From Candidatus Saccharimonadales bacterium (GTDB taxonomy: Bacteria; Patescibacteriota; Saccharimonadia; Saccharimonadales; UBA4665), in assembly GCA_025450135.1 (NCBI GenBank), contig JANWHZ010000038.1:1-57661 (forward strand): 57,661 nt of DNA, read 5' to 3'. Below the pieces are notes generated by a model. The model made no database searches and was not told the origin of the DNA. It saw only the letters and a program-made list of their open reading frames with translations. How positions within the stretch are numbered: position 1 is the stretch's first letter; every line of letters begins with the position of its first letter. A program made the translations under genes and the position numbers. Positions 6,005-14,357 of this stretch are shown here, one piece after another.

Positions 6005-7831
6005 TTATTTATCAAGAGGCGGCTTCGTATTCGCTCGTTTGGCGGAGCGCTTTGGATGAGGCGCACTGACAACTGGTTTAGCAAGTGCGGGTGTTGCATC
6101 GGCTTGGGCTGGGCGGATGGCTGCGATGAGCAACGGGTGTACATTGTCCAGCGTGCTGAGTAGTACAGTGATTAGGCGGTGAGCGGTTGGGTGCAGCGTG
6201 GAGCTGTCTGTGAGCTTATAAAGACGCACAAGGTCGCTTGCCGACGCAGTTACTTTGGCTCGGACTCGGTGCCCAAACAAGGTCGCATATTGTGCTTCTA
6301 CACTATATCCTGCTGTTTGCATCGCGCTATAGAGCATCAGGCTAAGGTCAAAACAGCGCTCAAAGTCCTCACTGAGACCTGCCTGCTCGATAGAGGCAGG
6401 CACATCGTAACCAAGCCGTGGCGACAGTGGCTGCCAGTCGAGGCTGTTTACAGCCTCGGCGCGGAGGTCAGCAATCGCTTCAAACTCTGTAAGTACGTCC
6501 CAACTGTATAAAACCGAGTCGAGGGCCAGCTTGTTGGGCGCAGGTTCACGCACGTAGCTGCGCAAAACAAAGGATTTTTTATCATAGGGCCAATCGGAAA
6601 CAGTGCGTTGAATGTCGCCGAAGGATTGGTTGCTGTACTCATAGAGGATTGCCGGGACGACATCGAGCTCGTTACGCGGCCAGTAGCTTGTCAAACTAAC
6701 AGTTTCCGATTCGTCGCTGTAGTTTTTTTGTAGCTCCGCAGCAACAGCTGAGAGTGAGGCGGCTGCGACTGGCTTTTTCTCAGGTGTTAACTCGGACATT
6801 GCCTGATCGTGTTGCACGGCCACCAGGGCAGCTGCAGGTAAGACAAGCTGAGCGTGAGATCGTGTCTCGGCAGGCAGCTGGTCGGCAATTTTGGCATAGA
6901 GCTTGATTAGCTGCGACATGTGTTGCTCGTAGAGCTCTTTGGTTGGTACGTCGAGGTGAGGCGGGATATAGAAGGCAACCGGCGGCTGATCGATCGAAAT
7001 CACCGCTCGTGGCACGCCTGAACGGACTGCAGCGAGTACTGATACTTTCTTGGTTTTGGATTGTTGGGGTGCAGCTTGTTCCGTGGGCGCTGGTGGTGTG
7101 GCTACCTCAGGTGCTGGCTCGGGTTCAGGCACGAGCGGTGATACTTTACCCCAGATCAGATCGTGTATTTGGCTGGGGTCGAGTAAGACGTTGCCACGCG
7201 CACAATCAACGCGAATAAAATCCTTGGGGAACAGCTGGCACATGTCGTCGTACACCGTGGCGGCCAACTGAAGTTGATCAAGTTCGGCTAGCTGGAGTGC
7301 CTCTATGTATTGCTCTGGCGTAGTACCGCGCTTTTGGCGCACTCGTTCTTGCGCGATGGCAGGCGGCACGCGAAGCACGAAGCTCATCGTCGGGCGCGGC
7401 ATGTTGAGCATGCGGAACTGAAGATTATCAAGCCAGATAAAGAAGCCACGACGTTCTTCAGGATGGATAATTTTAGCACCCTGGTTAGCCATATTCGAGC
7501 CCCCAAATCTCGTGGCGATAACTGCCTTCCCTTCAGCAAGCGCTTTACGGATAGCCGGGGTAGCATCGTAGTAATCAAGTGCGTAAAAAAGACAGGCAGT
7601 GTAGGCGCCGACCTGGATGCCAGAGCCGTAGGAGCCATGCACGTACTGGTCAACAAAATATGCAGCTGATTGACCGTGCTGTGGAAAGTTGAACTGGACT
7701 ACTTCGTAACCTGTTGTTTCAAGGCGCCGCTTTAGGAACGCGGCTTGTGTGTCTTTGCCACTGCCGTCAGTGCCTTCGATTGTGATAAACAAGCCGTCTC
7801 GCTGCTGCATAATGGGTGATCCTGCTCCCAC
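6005..7831 (-). CDS. thymidylate kinase domain fused to a divergent ThyX-like region
   Basis: N-terminus LFITIEGTDGSGKDTQAAFLKRRLETTGYEVVQFNFP...IATRFGGSNMANQGAKI (TMK-like); Pro-rich linker; C-terminus EFEAIADLRAEAVNSLDWQPLSPRLGYDVPASIEQAGLSEDFERCFDLSLMLYSAMQTAGYSVEAQYATLFGHRVRAKVTASASDLVRLYKLTDSSTLHPTAHRLI resembles ThyX-like proteins. Confidence 0.8.
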   Translation of the reverse strand: MGAGSPIMQQRDGLFITIEGTDGSGKDTQAAFLKRRLETTGYEVVQFNFPQHGQSAAYFVDQYVHGSYGSGIQVGAYTACLFYALDYYDATPAIRKALAEGKAVIATRFGGSNMANQGAKIIHPEERRGFFIWLDNLQFRMLNMPRPTMSFVLRVPPAIAQERVRQKRGTTPEQYIEALQLAELDQLQLAATVYDDMCQLFPKDFIRVDCARGNVLLDPSQIHDLIWGKVSPLVPEPEPAPEVATPPAPTEQAAPQQSKTKKVSVLAAVRSGVPRAVISIDQPPVAFYIPPHLDVPTKELYEQHMSQLIKLYAKIADQLPAETRSHAQLVLPAAALVAVQHDQAMSELTPEKKPVAAASLSAVAAELQKNYSDESETVSLTSYWPRNELDVVPAILYEYSNQSFGDIQRTVSDWPYDKKSFVLRSYVREPAPNKLALDSVLYSWDVLTEFEAIADLRAEAVNSLDWQPLSPRLGYDVPASIEQAGLSEDFERCFDLSLMLYSAMQTAGYSVEAQYATLFGHRVRAKVTASASDLVRLYKLTDSSTLHPTAHRLITVLLSTLDNVHPLLIAAIRPAQADATPALAKPVVSAPHPKRSAKRANTKPPLDK

Positions 7832-7933: not shown

Positions 7934-8443
7934 ATGAAGGTATTTATCATTGCAGCAATATCGGCCGATGGCCTGATGGGTATGAATGCCGATCAGCGCT
8001 CCCTTGACTGGCGTAGTCGTGAGGATGCGCAATTTTTTATTGAAGCTACCAAAGCGGCTCGCGTGATGGTAATGGGCTCGGCTACGTATAAGACGTTTAA
8101 GATGAAGCGCGCGCCTCCCGGCCGTCGCCTAATCGTCTACACGCACAATCTGTCGAGTATTAGTGGCGAGGGCGTCGAGACGACATCAGAGGAACCTGCA
8201 GTGCTTATTAGACGCCTTGCATTAGAAGGCTACACCGAAATCGCCATATGTGGTGGTGCCGCTATTCACTCGATGTTTCTCGCTGCTGGGTTGGTAGATG
8301 AGGTGTACCTTACTATCGAACCGGTTCTATTCGGCCAAGGCATTCCGTTTACCCGCGAGCCACTACGCGTGCCGCTGAAGCTGCTTGATACTACCAACTT
8401 GAATGCCAGCACGGTGTTGCTCCATTACGCGATCGAGAAATAG
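7934..8443 (+). CDS. dihydrofolate reductase / RibD C-terminal-like protein
   Basis: MKVFIIAAISADGLMGMNADQRSLDWRSREDAQFFIEATKAARVMVMGSATYKTFKM...RRLIVYTHN...EIAICGGAAIHSMFLAAGLVDEVYLTIEPVLFGQGIPF. Confidence 0.88.
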   Translation: MKVFIIAAISADGLMGMNADQRSLDWRSREDAQFFIEATKAARVMVMGSATYKTFKMKRAPPGRRLIVYTHNLSSISGEGVETTSEEPAVLIRRLALEGYTEIAICGGAAIHSMFLAAGLVDEVYLTIEPVLFGQGIPFTREPLRVPLKLLDTTNLNASTVLLHYAIEK

Positions 8444-9409
8444 CTAAAGAACCGGATTATGTATCCCCCACTTTGGCGGAAAAAAGTAGACGATAGGTTT
8501 CGGCGTTTCATGAAACCGGGCTTTGATTCTTCTGCGCGCACTGGCTAGTTCCGGCACAGCTTCCCGACAATATTTGTCAGTCTCGCAAAATAGCCCCTGG
8601 CAATCGATTGCATGTAACTTTCGGCCAAACAGTGTGGCAGGCGGAAGCTTCAGGCGTCGAAACTCGTCGTCTTGGTGCTCGGTCATCCACTGGATAACTT
8701 CAGCTGGCTTGAAATCGCCCAGATCAGTAAATACCTTCTGCATGCCGCGAAGCGCACCGGGACCAGGCATTGTAAAATCGTTCTCATCGAAGTTGACAAG
8801 GCTAGAATAATTTAGGTCTATAGCTATTTGATAGGCCATAAAGTTACCGATCAGCGGGTAGGAGCGAAGCAGCTCGAAGATCGCCTGCAGCGACGGTGCT
8901 ATCAGTAGCTTTGCGCCCAATCTGTCGGATAGGAACATGTGCCGGAAGAGTGCAACGTGGTTGAGATATTTTTTGTGGTGGCCGTAGGCGTCGTTAGCGC
9001 AGAGGATGAACGCGCCAGTGTATATAGCCGTCTGCGAGGCTGTGGCATGCTTGATTGCTTTAGTGAACTGGCCGCTTGCTAGGTCGTCGAGTGTTGGCTG
9101 ACGGCCAAGGAATGTGATGATAGTGTCCCAGGTTTCTGGCTTACTAAATGTCCGGAACGCAACGATTTGGAATAATCGATCTTCGTCATCGCATGGCACA
9201 GTATGATAGCAGACGTCGCGGATCATATATTGGCTGACGCGGTCCGCAGCTCTGAAAACATTGCAGAACTTGTATTCGTGCAGAATCGGGTCATCCGTCC
9301 AGGGGGCAGGCTTGCCTGCTAGCCGCCTTTGGAAAATTTGTTGGCGCTCGGAGGCAAAGTACCAGTACAGGTCATACACGCGTGGCCGTGGTATAGGTGG
9401 GCGCTTCAT
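8444..9409 (-). CDS. putative DNA base hypermodification protein (5-hmdU DNA kinase helical domain / alpha-glutamyl-putrescinyl-thymine pyrophosphorylase-like)
   Basis: VYDLYWYFASERQQIFQRRLAGKPAPWTDDPILHEYKFCNVFRAADRVSQYMIRDVCY...DRLFQIVAFRTFSKPETWDTI...AIYTGAFILC matches my recollection of this family's pattern (ERQ.IF..R..G..PWT.DPIL....F.NVFRA.DRVSQ..I). Confidence 0.75.
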   Translation of the reverse strand: MKRPPIPRPRVYDLYWYFASERQQIFQRRLAGKPAPWTDDPILHEYKFCNVFRAADRVSQYMIRDVCYHTVPCDDEDRLFQIVAFRTFSKPETWDTIITFLGRQPTLDDLASGQFTKAIKHATASQTAIYTGAFILCANDAYGHHKKYLNHVALFRHMFLSDRLGAKLLIAPSLQAIFELLRSYPLIGNFMAYQIAIDLNYSSLVNFDENDFTMPGPGALRGMQKVFTDLGDFKPAEVIQWMTEHQDDEFRRLKLPPATLFGRKLHAIDCQGLFCETDKYCREAVPELASARRRIKARFHETPKPIVYFFPPKWGIHNPVL

Positions 9410-9412
9410 TGG

Positions 9413-10069
9413 CTAGTGGCTCACGGTTTCCATGTCGATATATGGCAGACCGAGGGTTTCGAGCAGGATCTGCCAAGTCTCAGCCAATGTACCGTCATTG
9501 GAAATTTCGTGGACAGTTACGCCCTCCTTCCGCTGCTCAGCAATCAATTCCTGGTAAAAGGCGTCTAGTTGCCTGTGCCGCTCGGCCGTAAGCTGGTGTG
9601 GCTTGAGACTTTCTTTACGTGTTACATACACGACTTCGGGCCGAATGAGCGGATCCCAGAACATGCGTTCCGCTGCAATCAGTTTATCTGTCTGATCCTT
9701 CGACAATATCGGACGCGAATAGGCGTAGGTGCTCCACCAGTATCGATCGAGTACGACATTGCCACCGGCCTGTAGTGTCGGGGCGATACGTGAAATGATT
9801 GAATCAACGTGTGCTGCAATGTGCATGAGCTGCAATGCTGGCTGCGTCACTTTGGATGTACTTGGCGCGCGTGTCACTTGGTTGCGGTGGAATCGATATA
9901 CCCATTCTCCTAATGTACCCTGATGTGATCCGGGAAAGAGGTCGGTGTACAGTGGTAAATTTGAAAAGAATTGCCCGTAGTAAGCAGCCACCAGCTTGAA
10001 TAGTGCGGTCTTGCCAGATCCATCGACGCCTTCTAAAACGACAAATCTTGGAGGTCTATTGTTGCTCAT
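9413..10069 (-). CDS. thymidylate kinase-like P-loop kinase, candidate partner of the adjacent hypermodification-type protein
   Basis: RFVVLEGVDGSGKTALFKLVAAYY (Walker A), NVVLDRYWWSTYAYSRP (DRY-type motif); 3 nt gap to 8444..9409. Confidence 0.82.
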   Translation of the reverse strand: MSNNRPPRFVVLEGVDGSGKTALFKLVAAYYGQFFSNLPLYTDLFPGSHQGTLGEWVYRFHRNQVTRAPSTSKVTQPALQLMHIAAHVDSIISRIAPTLQAGGNVVLDRYWWSTYAYSRPILSKDQTDKLIAAERMFWDPLIRPEVVYVTRKESLKPHQLTAERHRQLDAFYQELIAEQRKEGVTVHEISNDGTLAETWQILLETLGLPYIDMETVSH

Positions 10070-10131: not shown

Positions 10132-10845
10132 CTAGGGGACTGTTTTTAGTAGCGGGATAGCAGGCGGCAGCGCCCGTTTGTCGAGATAGGCCCGAGGCAG
10201 CATTAAGGCCGGCTCCCAGTTCTCGATCAATGCAGCGATATTGGTTCCACTTTGGTATTTGCCGCTGAAGCCACCATCGCGCCCTTCGCCGTAGGCGCCA
10301 AGAACGTCTCCGGTGTCGTGGAACATTATCTGGGCAATCCGCTCGCCCACCGGTAATACAACCGTCTCGCGTTGGTTCAGGTTGTAGATCTCGAGCGTTA
10401 GCCGGTTGATATACCCGGGATCGATCCAACCTGCGTCAAAACATACTGCAATACCATTGCGGCCCCATGTGGATCGGGCTTTGACTTCGCATGCGCCTGG
10501 TGGCAAAATGCCGAAGAATTCATGCGTGTGCCCAAGTATGCGTTCGCCTGGACGAAGAGGGATGATCGGGTGGTCCTTTGGGATGCCGTGCAGCAATGTC
10601 ACCCCGTTTTGTTTACACCACTCAGCATGCGGCATGGCTTTGAGCGGCGCACCGAAGTAGCGTCCGACGTCATCTTGGTCAAAGGGGTTGTATACCGGAT
10701 GGTCGTGAATGCGCTCAGTACGGTAATAATAATGACCGAGCGTCACATCTAAGCTAGCTTGGCTGACGTGCTTTGTATTGAACGGTATGCACATGATGTG
10801 CCCGTTATCTACTGCGTCCAAAATCTGCGTATTACTGTAGACCAT
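10132..10845 (-). CDS. dcd: dCTP deaminase / dUTPase superfamily
   Basis: VKARSTWGRNGIAVCFDAGWIDPGYINRLTLEIYNLNQRETVVLPVGERIAQIMFHDTGDV...GKYQSGTN; start at MVYSNTQIL preferred over 10872. Confidence 0.88.
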   Translation of the reverse strand: MVYSNTQILDAVDNGHIMCIPFNTKHVSQASLDVTLGHYYYRTERIHDHPVYNPFDQDDVGRYFGAPLKAMPHAEWCKQNGVTLLHGIPKDHPIIPLRPGERILGHTHEFFGILPPGACEVKARSTWGRNGIAVCFDAGWIDPGYINRLTLEIYNLNQRETVVLPVGERIAQIMFHDTGDVLGAYGEGRDGGFSGKYQSGTNIAALIENWEPALMLPRAYLDKRALPPAIPLLKTVP

Positions 10846-10964
10846 CTCTCCTCCGGCTGCGCATTTTTCCATAGGCGCACCGCTAATTCAAGTGTAAAAA
10901 GTACTACCATATAGCGGTGTTGCGGCAGCCTTTTTCCTCTATAATTTCCGCTAATGAGGCCTGT

Positions 10965-12019: not shown

Positions 12020-12577
12020 ATGGCGGCCGGTTGGAAAAAACGGTTTGTGTCGCAGAGCGATCTATTAACGCTGAGTGAACAACTCAAGGAAAGAAATAAG
12101 AAGGTGGTCTTTACGGCTGGTTCTTGGGACTTGCTGCATGTCGGCCAAGTGCGGTATCTTGAAATCGCTAAAACATATGGCGATGTCTTGGTTGTCGGAA
12201 TCAGTAGTAATGAGGCTATCAAACGCGTGAAAGGTCCGAATAAACCTATCCTCGACGAACGTGTCAGAGCAGAGGTCATCTCCTCACTTCGAGCAGTCGA
12301 CTTTGTCACGATGTTGCCCGAGCCGAGCTGTGTGCCGACATTGGGCTTATTAAGGCCTGACGTATATATCATTCCCGAGGAGGAGTGGGCCAGTGATTAC
12401 AAGAACTCCAAGGAATACAAGACAGTAACTAAATATGGTGGCGAGGTCATGGTGCTGCAGCGTCAATCTACACTGATTTCGACTAGCAAAATTGTTCAGC
12501 GCGCGATAGGTGGCCATCTGGGTGAAGTATTCAAAGAGTTTGTTGAGCTCCGCAAGACACCATTAAGGGATAAGTAG
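12020..12577 (+). CDS. cytidylyltransferase-family nucleotidyltransferase (RfaE2/TagD-like)
   Basis: VVFTAGSWDLLHVGQVRYLEIAKTYGDVLVVGISSNEAIKRVKGPNKPILDERVRAEVISSLRAVDFV; variant of the GxFDxxHxGH motif and ISTSKI motif. Confidence 0.88.
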   Translation: MAAGWKKRFVSQSDLLTLSEQLKERNKKVVFTAGSWDLLHVGQVRYLEIAKTYGDVLVVGISSNEAIKRVKGPNKPILDERVRAEVISSLRAVDFVTMLPEPSCVPTLGLLRPDVYIIPEEEWASDYKNSKEYKTVTKYGGEVMVLQRQSTLISTSKIVQRAIGGHLGEVFKEFVELRKTPLRDK

Positions 12578-13548
12578 TGAATCTCAGCCCTGACGAGCAG
12601 AAGCAGCAAGAGTATTACCGCGATGCGCGGACCTCAGGGTATTACGATCAGATTTGGCAAACTGTTGGTAAGTGTGTGTTTTGTGACATGCGCGATAAAT
12701 ATATTTTCTATGAGGAGAATGGTATCGTCATGACGGTACCGCTGTATGCCTATATTGACGGCAATATCATGATCATTCCACACCGGCACGTGCGATCAGT
12801 GAAAGAATTGACGCCCAGCGAGTGGGAAACGATGCGTAAAATGATGTACCTTGCCAAGAAATTGGTGCGCAAGGTTCATGGCCTAAAGGGCATGCAGATA
12901 ATCCAGAAAGATGGCAGCGAAGCACAAAGTACCGTGGAACACTTGCATTTTCACTGTATTCCTTTTGACGCGCCAGATCTTAGTATTTGGAACTATCGCA
13001 AACTGAAGTACACGCCACTTGAGAATGCGGCTTTATATAAGGCTGAATCGTCAGAAATTGAAAAATTGGGTGGAAAGTTTGATGAAAAGTACGCCGAACA
13101 ATTGCCAGCTAGCCAGAATAAAAAGGAACTGTACCGTGCGGCGTTTATGCAAGCGTTCATGAACAAGAAAGCATCTGCCGCCAAGAAGACGGCTCAAGTT
13201 GGTGCATCTATCATCGCCGGGGGCCGAATCATCTCGAAGTGTAATGCCAGCCTCACCGAAGATCCAATAGAAGTTGAAAAAGATAATGGCTGGGCAAGCC
13301 CTCCCACCGTTTCACATGCTGAGGAGCGAGTGATTGGGCAAGCAGCCAAGGAAGGATTACAGCTGCAAGGTGTAACGATGATTGTTACGATGTCACCATG
13401 CATGGCGTGTTCACGGCTCATTGCGAACGCTGGTATTAAAGAGCTCCACTACGTCGACGAATGGTGGGACCATGATGCGATCGAGTTTCTTAAAAAGCAG
13501 GGAGTGAAAGTGGTGAAAGTTCCCTATAAGAGAAGTGGGAAGACGTGA
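12577..13548 (+). CDS. HIT-domain / (d)CMP-type deaminase fusion protein
   Basis: HIT: CVFCDMRDKYIFYEENGIVMTVPLYAYIDGNIMIIPHRHVRSVKELT...EHLHFHCIPF; deaminase: SHAEERVIGQAAKEG...VTMSPCMACSRLIANAGIKELHYVDEW (HAE + PCxxC). GTG start overlaps the previous TAG stop by 1 nt. Confidence 0.88.
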   Translation: MNLSPDEQKQQEYYRDARTSGYYDQIWQTVGKCVFCDMRDKYIFYEENGIVMTVPLYAYIDGNIMIIPHRHVRSVKELTPSEWETMRKMMYLAKKLVRKVHGLKGMQIIQKDGSEAQSTVEHLHFHCIPFDAPDLSIWNYRKLKYTPLENAALYKAESSEIEKLGGKFDEKYAEQLPASQNKKELYRAAFMQAFMNKKASAAKKTAQVGASIIAGGRIISKCNASLTEDPIEVEKDNGWASPPTVSHAEERVIGQAAKEGLQLQGVTMIVTMSPCMACSRLIANAGIKELHYVDEWWDHDAIEFLKKQGVKVVKVPYKRSGKT

Positions 13549-14357
13549 TGGCGCATCCCGAATACCAATATTTACGATTGATGGCCGAAATTATTAAAGA
13601 CGGTAAGACAAAGCAAACGCGCGGAATACATCCAATTAAAACAATTTTTGGCTCGCAATTACGCTTTGATATGCGCTATGGCTTTCCGCTGTTAACCACT
13701 AAAAGAATGCCCTTTAAGATTCTACTCCATGAACTCTTATGGTTTGTCTCTGGCAGCTCTGAGGTGGCATATCTGCATGAGCATGGCATTCATTATTGGG
13801 ATGGGTTTTTGAATGGCAAAACTGACCTTGGCCGAGTATATGGGGTTCAGTGGCGACATTGGAAACGGCCGGATGGTAGCGAGTTTGACCAACTGCAGTG
13901 GGCTATCGACGAGATCAAAAATCATCCGAATTCCAAGGCTATTTTAGTAAGCGCGTGGAATGCCGGCGAGCTAAAAGAAATGCGGCTGCCGCCGTGCCAC
14001 ACGATGTTCCAATTTGACGTGACTAAAGGTAAGCTGCGGATGATGCTTTACCAACGCTCCTGGGATGTTTTTCTGGGCGGGCCTTTCAACATCGCACAAT
14101 ATGCCATGCTGCTGCTGATGGTAGCGCACGTAACTGGTCTTGAAGCTCGTGAACTGATAATCTCTGTCGGCGATACACACTTATACACCAACCATATAGA
14201 GCCAGCTAAAGAGCAGCTACGACGCAAGCCTTACCCCTTCCCTACCCTCAAAATAATTGGCGACGTAAAGAGTATCGATGACTTCAAAGAGGATAATTTC
14301 GTCCTAGAAGATTATCAGTATCATCCTCATATTAAAGCTGATCTTGTTATTGTTTAA
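13545..14357 (+). CDS. thyA: thymidylate synthase family protein (ThyA or dUMP hydroxymethylase)
   Basis: IFGSQLRFDMRYGFPLLTTKRMPFKILLHELLWFVSGSSEVAYLHEHGIHYWDG...LPPCHTMFQF...LYQRSWDVFLGGPFNIAQYA...GDTHLYTNH: catalytic Cys, substrate Asn and HxY motifs conserved; glycine loop divergent (QTRGIHPI). Confidence 0.92.
   Translation: MMAHPEYQYLRLMAEIIKDGKTKQTRGIHPIKTIFGSQLRFDMRYGFPLLTTKRMPFKILLHELLWFVSGSSEVAYLHEHGIHYWDGFLNGKTDLGRVYGVQWRHWKRPDGSEFDQLQWAIDEIKNHPNSKAILVSAWNAGELKEMRLPPCHTMFQFDVTKGKLRMMLYQRSWDVFLGGPFNIAQYAMLLLMVAHVTGLEARELIISVGDTHLYTNHIEPAKEQLRRKPYPFPTLKIIGDVKSIDDFKEDNFVLEDYQYHPHIKADLVIV

Follow-up and report, generated by a model that had tools for sequence, protein, structure and literature searches.

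A HMUDK_hel gene beside a thymidylate kinase-like gene in a Patescibacteria genome: a candidate thymine-modification module

Hypermodified thymine is best known from phages. The window analysed here, a stretch of 57,661 nucleotides (contig JANWHZ010000038.1) from a Candidatus Saccharimonadales bacterium, raises the question of whether a member of a reduced-genome lineage carries genes for handling such bases in its own chromosome, and what these genes would act on. An initial annotation proposed that two adjacent genes in this window form a pair of this kind. We know of no substrate for free-standing cellular HMUDK_hel, the family to which one of them belongs. The reading developed below is that the pair is a minimal thymine-modification module, acquired horizontally by a Saccharibacteria-like (Patescibacteria) genome and set in its locus for dTTP synthesis. 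It is put forward tentatively, with not quite an even chance of being correct.

The gene pair and its surroundings

The genome is 829 kb long in 58 contigs, of which 828,069 of 829,123 bases were retrieved, and the assembly is approximately 87% complete. Its size, its gene order and the relatives that carry names look like those of a Saccharibacteria-type Patescibacterium. The two reading frames and their spacing were verified exactly as initially annotated (Table 1). They are separated by 3 nt, and the kinase gene (P0002) is transcribed first, followed by the HMUDK_hel gene (P0001). The minus strand carries dCTP deaminase, P0002, P0001 and the TMK-ThyX fusion, in this order, with a plus-strand DHFR-like gene intervening before the fusion.

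Table 1. Positions of the gene pair and neighbouring genes in the window
Feature	Position	Strand	Basis
P0001, HMUDK_hel protein (PF18723), 321 aa	8444-9409	minus	Pfam profile match
P0002, TMK-like P-loop dNMP kinase, 218 aa	9413-10069	minus	PF02223, fold, tree
dCTP deaminase, housekeeping	10132-10872	minus	PF22769 E 5e-31; upstream in same-strand run
TMK-ThyX fusion, ThyX half decayed	6005-7831	minus	Alignments with relatives
DHFR/RibD_C-like reductase, convergent with HMUDK_hel gene	7934-8443	plus	PF01872 3e-14, PF00186 2e-13
ThyA, canonical thymidylate synthase	13545-14357	plus	NF002497 343 bits, cut-off 327
HIT domain + dCMP/cytidine deaminase-type domain fusion, adjoins ThyA	12577-13548	plus	PF01230 1e-13, PF00383 8e-15

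The immediate neighbours of the pair are thymidylate and nucleotide genes (dCTP deaminase, DHFR, TMK-ThyX, ThyA and the HIT-dCMP deaminase), with the ribosomal genes L10/L12 and L1/L11 just beyond them. The surroundings had been described as ribosomal core, which is true only of this outer ring; the other part of that description, a chromosomal setting, stands, and no phage structural genes were seen near the pair. A prophage origin was considered and dropped, as no phage genes flank it. The deaminase-type domain of the HIT fusion is zinc-binding, and the gene overlaps the start of ThyA.

Most of the relatives examined have the order NusG-L11-L1 and further genes up to dCTP deaminase; a TMK-ThyX fusion about 780 aa long follows it directly, and L10-L12 come next. 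Because dCTP deaminase and TMK-ThyX adjoin in these relatives, P0002, P0001 and the DHFR gene are extra genes placed between them here. The dCTP deaminase has a homologue in 33 of 36 relatives, and is therefore counted as ordinary housekeeping.

The HMUDK_hel protein and the kinase

P0001 matches the Pfam family PF18723 (HMUDK_hel) with 326 bits against a gathering cut-off of 25 (E 2.4e-97, positions 3-280 of 281), and PHROG 2396 with E 3e-61. Of the 70 columns with conservation of 95% or more among 49 homologues, it retains 69. The match is far beyond chance and upholds the family first assigned to the protein, and the gene appears intact. The AF2 prediction is all-helical (pLDDT 93.5, pTM 0.91). 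Its best Foldseek matches are phage HMUDK_hel proteins (E 1e-13), and the matches include a 637-aa protein of phage SP10 named as a 5-hmdU DNA kinase. Nothing in the PDB is significant (best E 1.1), the list being dominated by the glycosylases OGG1 and AlkA, and searching the PDB by sequence gave no relative with a solved structure. From the predicted fold we infer that the scaffold is of a distant HhH-GPD type, which would be base-flipping. P0001 is a candidate thymine-base-handling enzyme. The second label given to it initially, aGPT-PPlase (now AADT), was rejected on sequence: P0001 has no match to PF18724, and hhalign against the AADT of phage YuA, gp10, was negative. The predicted fold is marginally similar to AADT proteins (Foldseek E 1e-2, probability 0.99-1.0).

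P0002 matches PF02223 (Thymidylate_kin) with E 1e-11 and has an intact P-loop. It has no match to PF18748 up to E 1; the kinase of phage YuA, gp13, matches that profile at 8e-18. The predicted structure is of fair confidence (pLDDT 81), and each of its best 50 PDB matches is a thymidylate kinase. Thymidylate kinases act on free nucleotides. In a tree, P0002-type kinases split from the housekeeping TMKs with support of 99/97, in a clade that takes in one long-branched sequence from genome G001. At the AxR site P0002 reads AAH, and a His replaces the Arg of the thymine pocket; the other members of the clade have His in six of seven cases, and Gln in one, at the position of the TMK AxR arginine. 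TMK structures show that this arginine binds thymine. P0002 is a candidate modified-thymidylate kinase and/or replacement thymidylate kinase.

These results bear on the initial proposal that P0002 is a kinase for 5-hydroxymethyl-dU in DNA and P0001 its helical partner, the two giving hypermodified thymine in the organism's own chromosome. The gene order is that of phage YuA, where gp13 (PF18748) lies directly before gp14 (PF18723), and the pair could be a separate-gene version of the phage arrangement. The TMK-like P-loop part of the proposal is well founded, but the TMK fold and the lack of a PF18748 match argue against a kinase that acts on DNA, and neither a hydroxymethylase nor AADT was found in the 828 kb of genome searched. 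We consider this model highly improbable.

The 828 kb were searched for the remaining parts of such a pathway with local profiles and with single sequences, of which the single-sequence queries are weak tests. One copy of HMUDK_hel was found, and ThyA is the only PF00303 gene. In these 828 kb (of an approximately 87% complete assembly) no TS-like dUMP hydroxymethylase (divergent TS) was found beyond canonical ThyA, and likewise no YuA gp13-type (PF18748) kinase, AADT, X195 domain, Nmad2, TIR or radical-SAM partner. TylF and MazG profiles gave weak, generic-looking matches elsewhere in the genome. A TET/JBP dioxygenase search gave no match, and none in the control genomes either. ThyA itself was considered as the hydroxymethylase and rejected, as it passes the equivalog cut-off for thymidylate synthase (NF002497) and is the only TS found. 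The lack of hydroxymethylase, PF18748 kinase, AADT and Nmad2 in the 828 kb is counted against a thymine-modification module, and since no 5-hmdU hydroxymethylase was found, and in view of the results for the kinase and the pair, base modification in this organism is still hypothetical.

The thymidylate pathway and the two families in other genomes

The TMK-ThyX fusion is 608 aa long here. Large deletions mark its ThyX half, and QRHR and RRHRPGR, two stretches kept in relatives (where ThyX is in tandem in the fusion), are gone. In G004, a relative in which HMUDK_hel and a P0002 homologue were not found, ThyA is likewise present and the ThyX half is shortened. As ThyX decay accompanies ThyA in both genomes, it seems to follow the acquisition of ThyA. 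With ThyA and DHFR genes close by, the lineage seems to have switched from ThyX to ThyA, as in G004, and the DHFR/RibD_C-like gene is consistent with this. The TMK domain has changed as well: it reads ALDYYD and ATRFGG, compared to ALDR(F/Y) and (D/N)R(F/Y) in the other six fusions of the same TMK type compared, so that the ALDR arginine is missing, as is the D/N of the DR motif. G004 keeps both (ALDRF and ADRF). In this single comparison the loss is seen only where P0002 is present, and it would fit P0002 having taken over thymidylate phosphorylation.

This brings in the main rival, according to which P0002 is a plain replacement thymidylate kinase: ThyA and DHFR displaced ThyX, the TMK of the fusion decayed, P0002 took over, and HMUDK_hel is an unrelated horizontal arrival. 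The residues lost here and kept in G004 speak for it, as does the TMK fold of P0002, although the missing pocket Arg does not. The distribution of the kinase bears on it in both directions. Within a phylum sample of 389 genomes, strong P0002 homologues (bits >100) occur only in G753 and G732, both of which are HMUDK_hel-positive (p 4e-4 with this genome excluded, in a test framed post hoc), and this co-occurrence goes against an unrelated arrival. The two genes are not adjacent there: in G753 (approximately 100% complete) they are on one contig at a distance of 31 kb, and in G732 they are on separate contigs. No PF02223 gene other than the P0002-type one was detected in either genome, which is in keeping with an ordinary housekeeping role. 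The G732 kinase (L174, contig 15; the sole TMK-family gene found there) appears to be split by a frameshift near its start.

HMUDK_hel is found in 8 of 396 genomes of the order and in 9 of 389 of the phylum sample (8 besides this genome). In the relatives examined it is solitary, at unrelated sites and with no adjoining kinase, so that the gene pair, when looked for across related genomes, proved not to be conserved. A direct search of 39 HMUDK_hel-positive genomes found the P0002-type kinase absent in 38, the one positive being apparently G753 again. The solitary HMUDK_hel and the missing kinase count against a module, and the solitary HMUDK_hel also in favour of a replacement kinase.

An IMG/VR scan with an alignment of the kinase clade found three relatives. 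In the viral contig L281 a PF18723 gene lies about 370 nt upstream of the kinase; in L282 the kinase is directly before a divergent TS; and the kinase L283 shares its contig with a PF18723 locus (L265), with MazG, HTH and M78 peptidase genes between. All three viral contigs (3/3) therefore carry thymine-modification genes, HMUDK_hel in two and a divergent TS in one. The best plasmid match to P0002, from Mesorhizobium, has Nmad2, MazG, uracil-DNA glycosylase and TIR genes around it. On a plasmid of Mycobacterium sp. SMC-8, a MazG-MazG_C-kinase fusion adjoins HMUDK_hel; this case was reached via its PF18723 neighbour and is not an independent draw. Weaker tblastn matches include Rickettsia tmk and two phage thymidylate kinases, from Anabaena phage A-1(L) and Salmonella phage SPLA10. 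As a separate observation, the kinase of L281 is closely followed by a phage gene (4516-7314) in which a uracil-DNA-glycosylase-superfamily domain and a family A DNA polymerase are fused.

The plasmid and viral-contig kinases are counted in favour of a thymine-modification module, and against a plain replacement kinase, for which no housekeeping role would be expected in such settings. Together with the co-occurrence in the phylum, the viral contigs also bear out the initial suggestion that this type of kinase is linked to thymine modification. On balance the evidence favours the module, and we regard a plain replacement kinase as somewhat unlikely. The two are compatible if one kinase could serve both substrates.

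The HMUDK_hel family is widespread. At least 552 stretches related to it were found in GTDB genomes, and the best relatives of P0001 among the matches listed are from Actinomycetota (66-68% identity). In a tree, P0001 and Patescibacteria copies fall together within a larger group of mixed Actinomycetota and Pseudomonadota sequences; several inner forks are weak. This position makes transfer of HMUDK_hel between phyla likely. One copy is publicly annotated as a "putative DNA base hypermodification protein". In phages, tblastn finds HMUDK_hel in 497 records and YuA gp13-type kinases in 401, whose host genera are largely shared with the HMUDK_hel records.

The bacterial neighbours of HMUDK_hel include TS-like fusions, TylF-type methyltransferases, MazG/MazG_C, DUF1643, Nmad2 and dCTP deaminase, and its company with TS-like, MazG, TylF and Nmad2 genes is counted in favour of the module. 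Several arrangements recur. In L016 and L036-L055, a TS-like protein fused to an unnamed helical domain of about 195 aa, a TylF-type methyltransferase and HMUDK_hel lie beside Nmad2 and ThsB-TIR/TIR-SLOG genes; the same helical domain is free-standing in L028, L030 and L033. A mobile module in L017, L018, L020, L021 and L265 consists of ACP/AcpS, HTH, M78/ImmA-IrrE peptidase, a C1-peptidase-like or unnamed gene, HMUDK_hel and MazG-MazG_C. In two Patescibacteria genomes the gene directly upstream of HMUDK_hel encodes a cupin protein (L011, 7320-7739, PF07883; L176, 8547, minus strand). Finally, a radical-SAM/SPASM gene accompanies HMUDK_hel in gut Bacilli and Clostridia. It lies directly upstream in L087 (5718-6722) and in 17 other loci of reduced-genome gut Bacilli/Clostridia, and the two genes are possibly a separate type of thymine-modification system.

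The ThsB-TIR and TIR-SLOG genes that adjoin HMUDK_hel systems in other bacteria raise the alternative that the target is invader DNA with modified thymine, or a phage's nucleotide pool, and that P0001 acts on it by itself or jointly with P0002. There is a precedent in E. coli, where a transcription unit that includes a recently validated 5-hmdU-kinase domain protects against phage; the figure legend also has TS and dNMP kinase labels (PMC13092281). Nothing in the present genome points directly to defence: TIR, Nmad2 and other effector partners were not found in it, and the locus is core metabolic rather than a defence island. A PADLOC match of P0002 to PDC-M51B was rejected as a sign of defence because it is nonspecific, ordinary TMKs scoring alike. 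An anti-phage role is possible, but we think it unlikely.

Possible roles of the pair and comparison with known systems

On the basis of the distinct kinase clade, its viral-contig context and its co-occurrence in the phylum, we read the pair as a dNMP kinase and a base-handling protein from the known thymine-modification/conflict kit. Genes of this kind serve phages and mobile elements to alter T in DNA, and the two found here probably act on thymine nucleotides and on thymine in DNA. P0002 would be a dNMP kinase with the TMK fold and a base pocket altered in a way that suits 5-substituted dUMP (modified thymidylate), and it may cover dTMP as well. P0001 would bind DNA, probably flipping bases out, and would handle or modify bases of the thymine type there, in the cell's own DNA or that of invaders, presumably within the same pathway.

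A bolder version is that some HMUDK_hel-bearing Patescibacteria swapped their TMK for a kinase from a phage or plasmid modification kit, so that modified thymidylate passes through the pool, or HMUDK_hel finishes it in DNA. An ultra-small symbiont would then modify the thymine of its genome with enzymes that it encodes itself, possibly using precursors from its host cell. We think this quite improbable.

The HMUDK_hel family and its bacterial operons are already known. What is new, as far as checked, is HMUDK_hel together with a free-standing kinase of the P0002 clade in a Patescibacterium, the repeated association of thymine-modification genes with this clade, and a TMK-ThyX fusion that has decayed in the same genome. 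A reduced-genome lineage with an intact HMUDK_hel beside a modification-type kinase in a rebuilt thymidylate pathway makes a small, testable case. The WWS/AAH kinase clade also provides a sequence marker by which thymine-modification systems could be recognised where the current annotation is simply thymidylate kinase.

Compared to known systems, P0001 is like phage YuA gp14 and other PF18723 proteins in its full-length match, conserved residues and predicted fold; with the AADT family (formerly aGPT-PPlase, PF18724) it shares only the marginal similarity of fold. The order of kinase then HMUDK_hel is the same as in YuA gp13-gp14, which, with the fold match to the SP10 protein, also counts in favour of a module, but the partner there is a PF18748 kinase and here a TMK-type kinase, and YuA has hydroxymethylase and AADT genes, none of which were found here. 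P0002 is like housekeeping TMKs (PF02223) in fold and P-loop, and differs in its pocket His and its separate clade. The systems of a Sinorhizobium chiapasense plasmid, Afipia and Actinoplanes (TS-like-TylF-HMUDK_hel; TS/MazG-HMUDK_hel; Nmad2/TIR neighbours) have HMUDK_hel proteins approximately 60-68% identical to P0001. These bacterial and plasmid systems have nucleotide-metabolism partners, as here, whereas the present locus has no TS-like, X195, Nmad2 or TIR partners and its kinase is free-standing. Further parallels are the Mycobacterium sp. SMC-8 plasmid and the viral contigs L281 and L265/L283, in which a P0002-type kinase occurs together with HMUDK_hel, as here. In those the kinase is fused or several genes away, with MazG partners in two of the three; here, without MazG, the two genes are directly adjacent.
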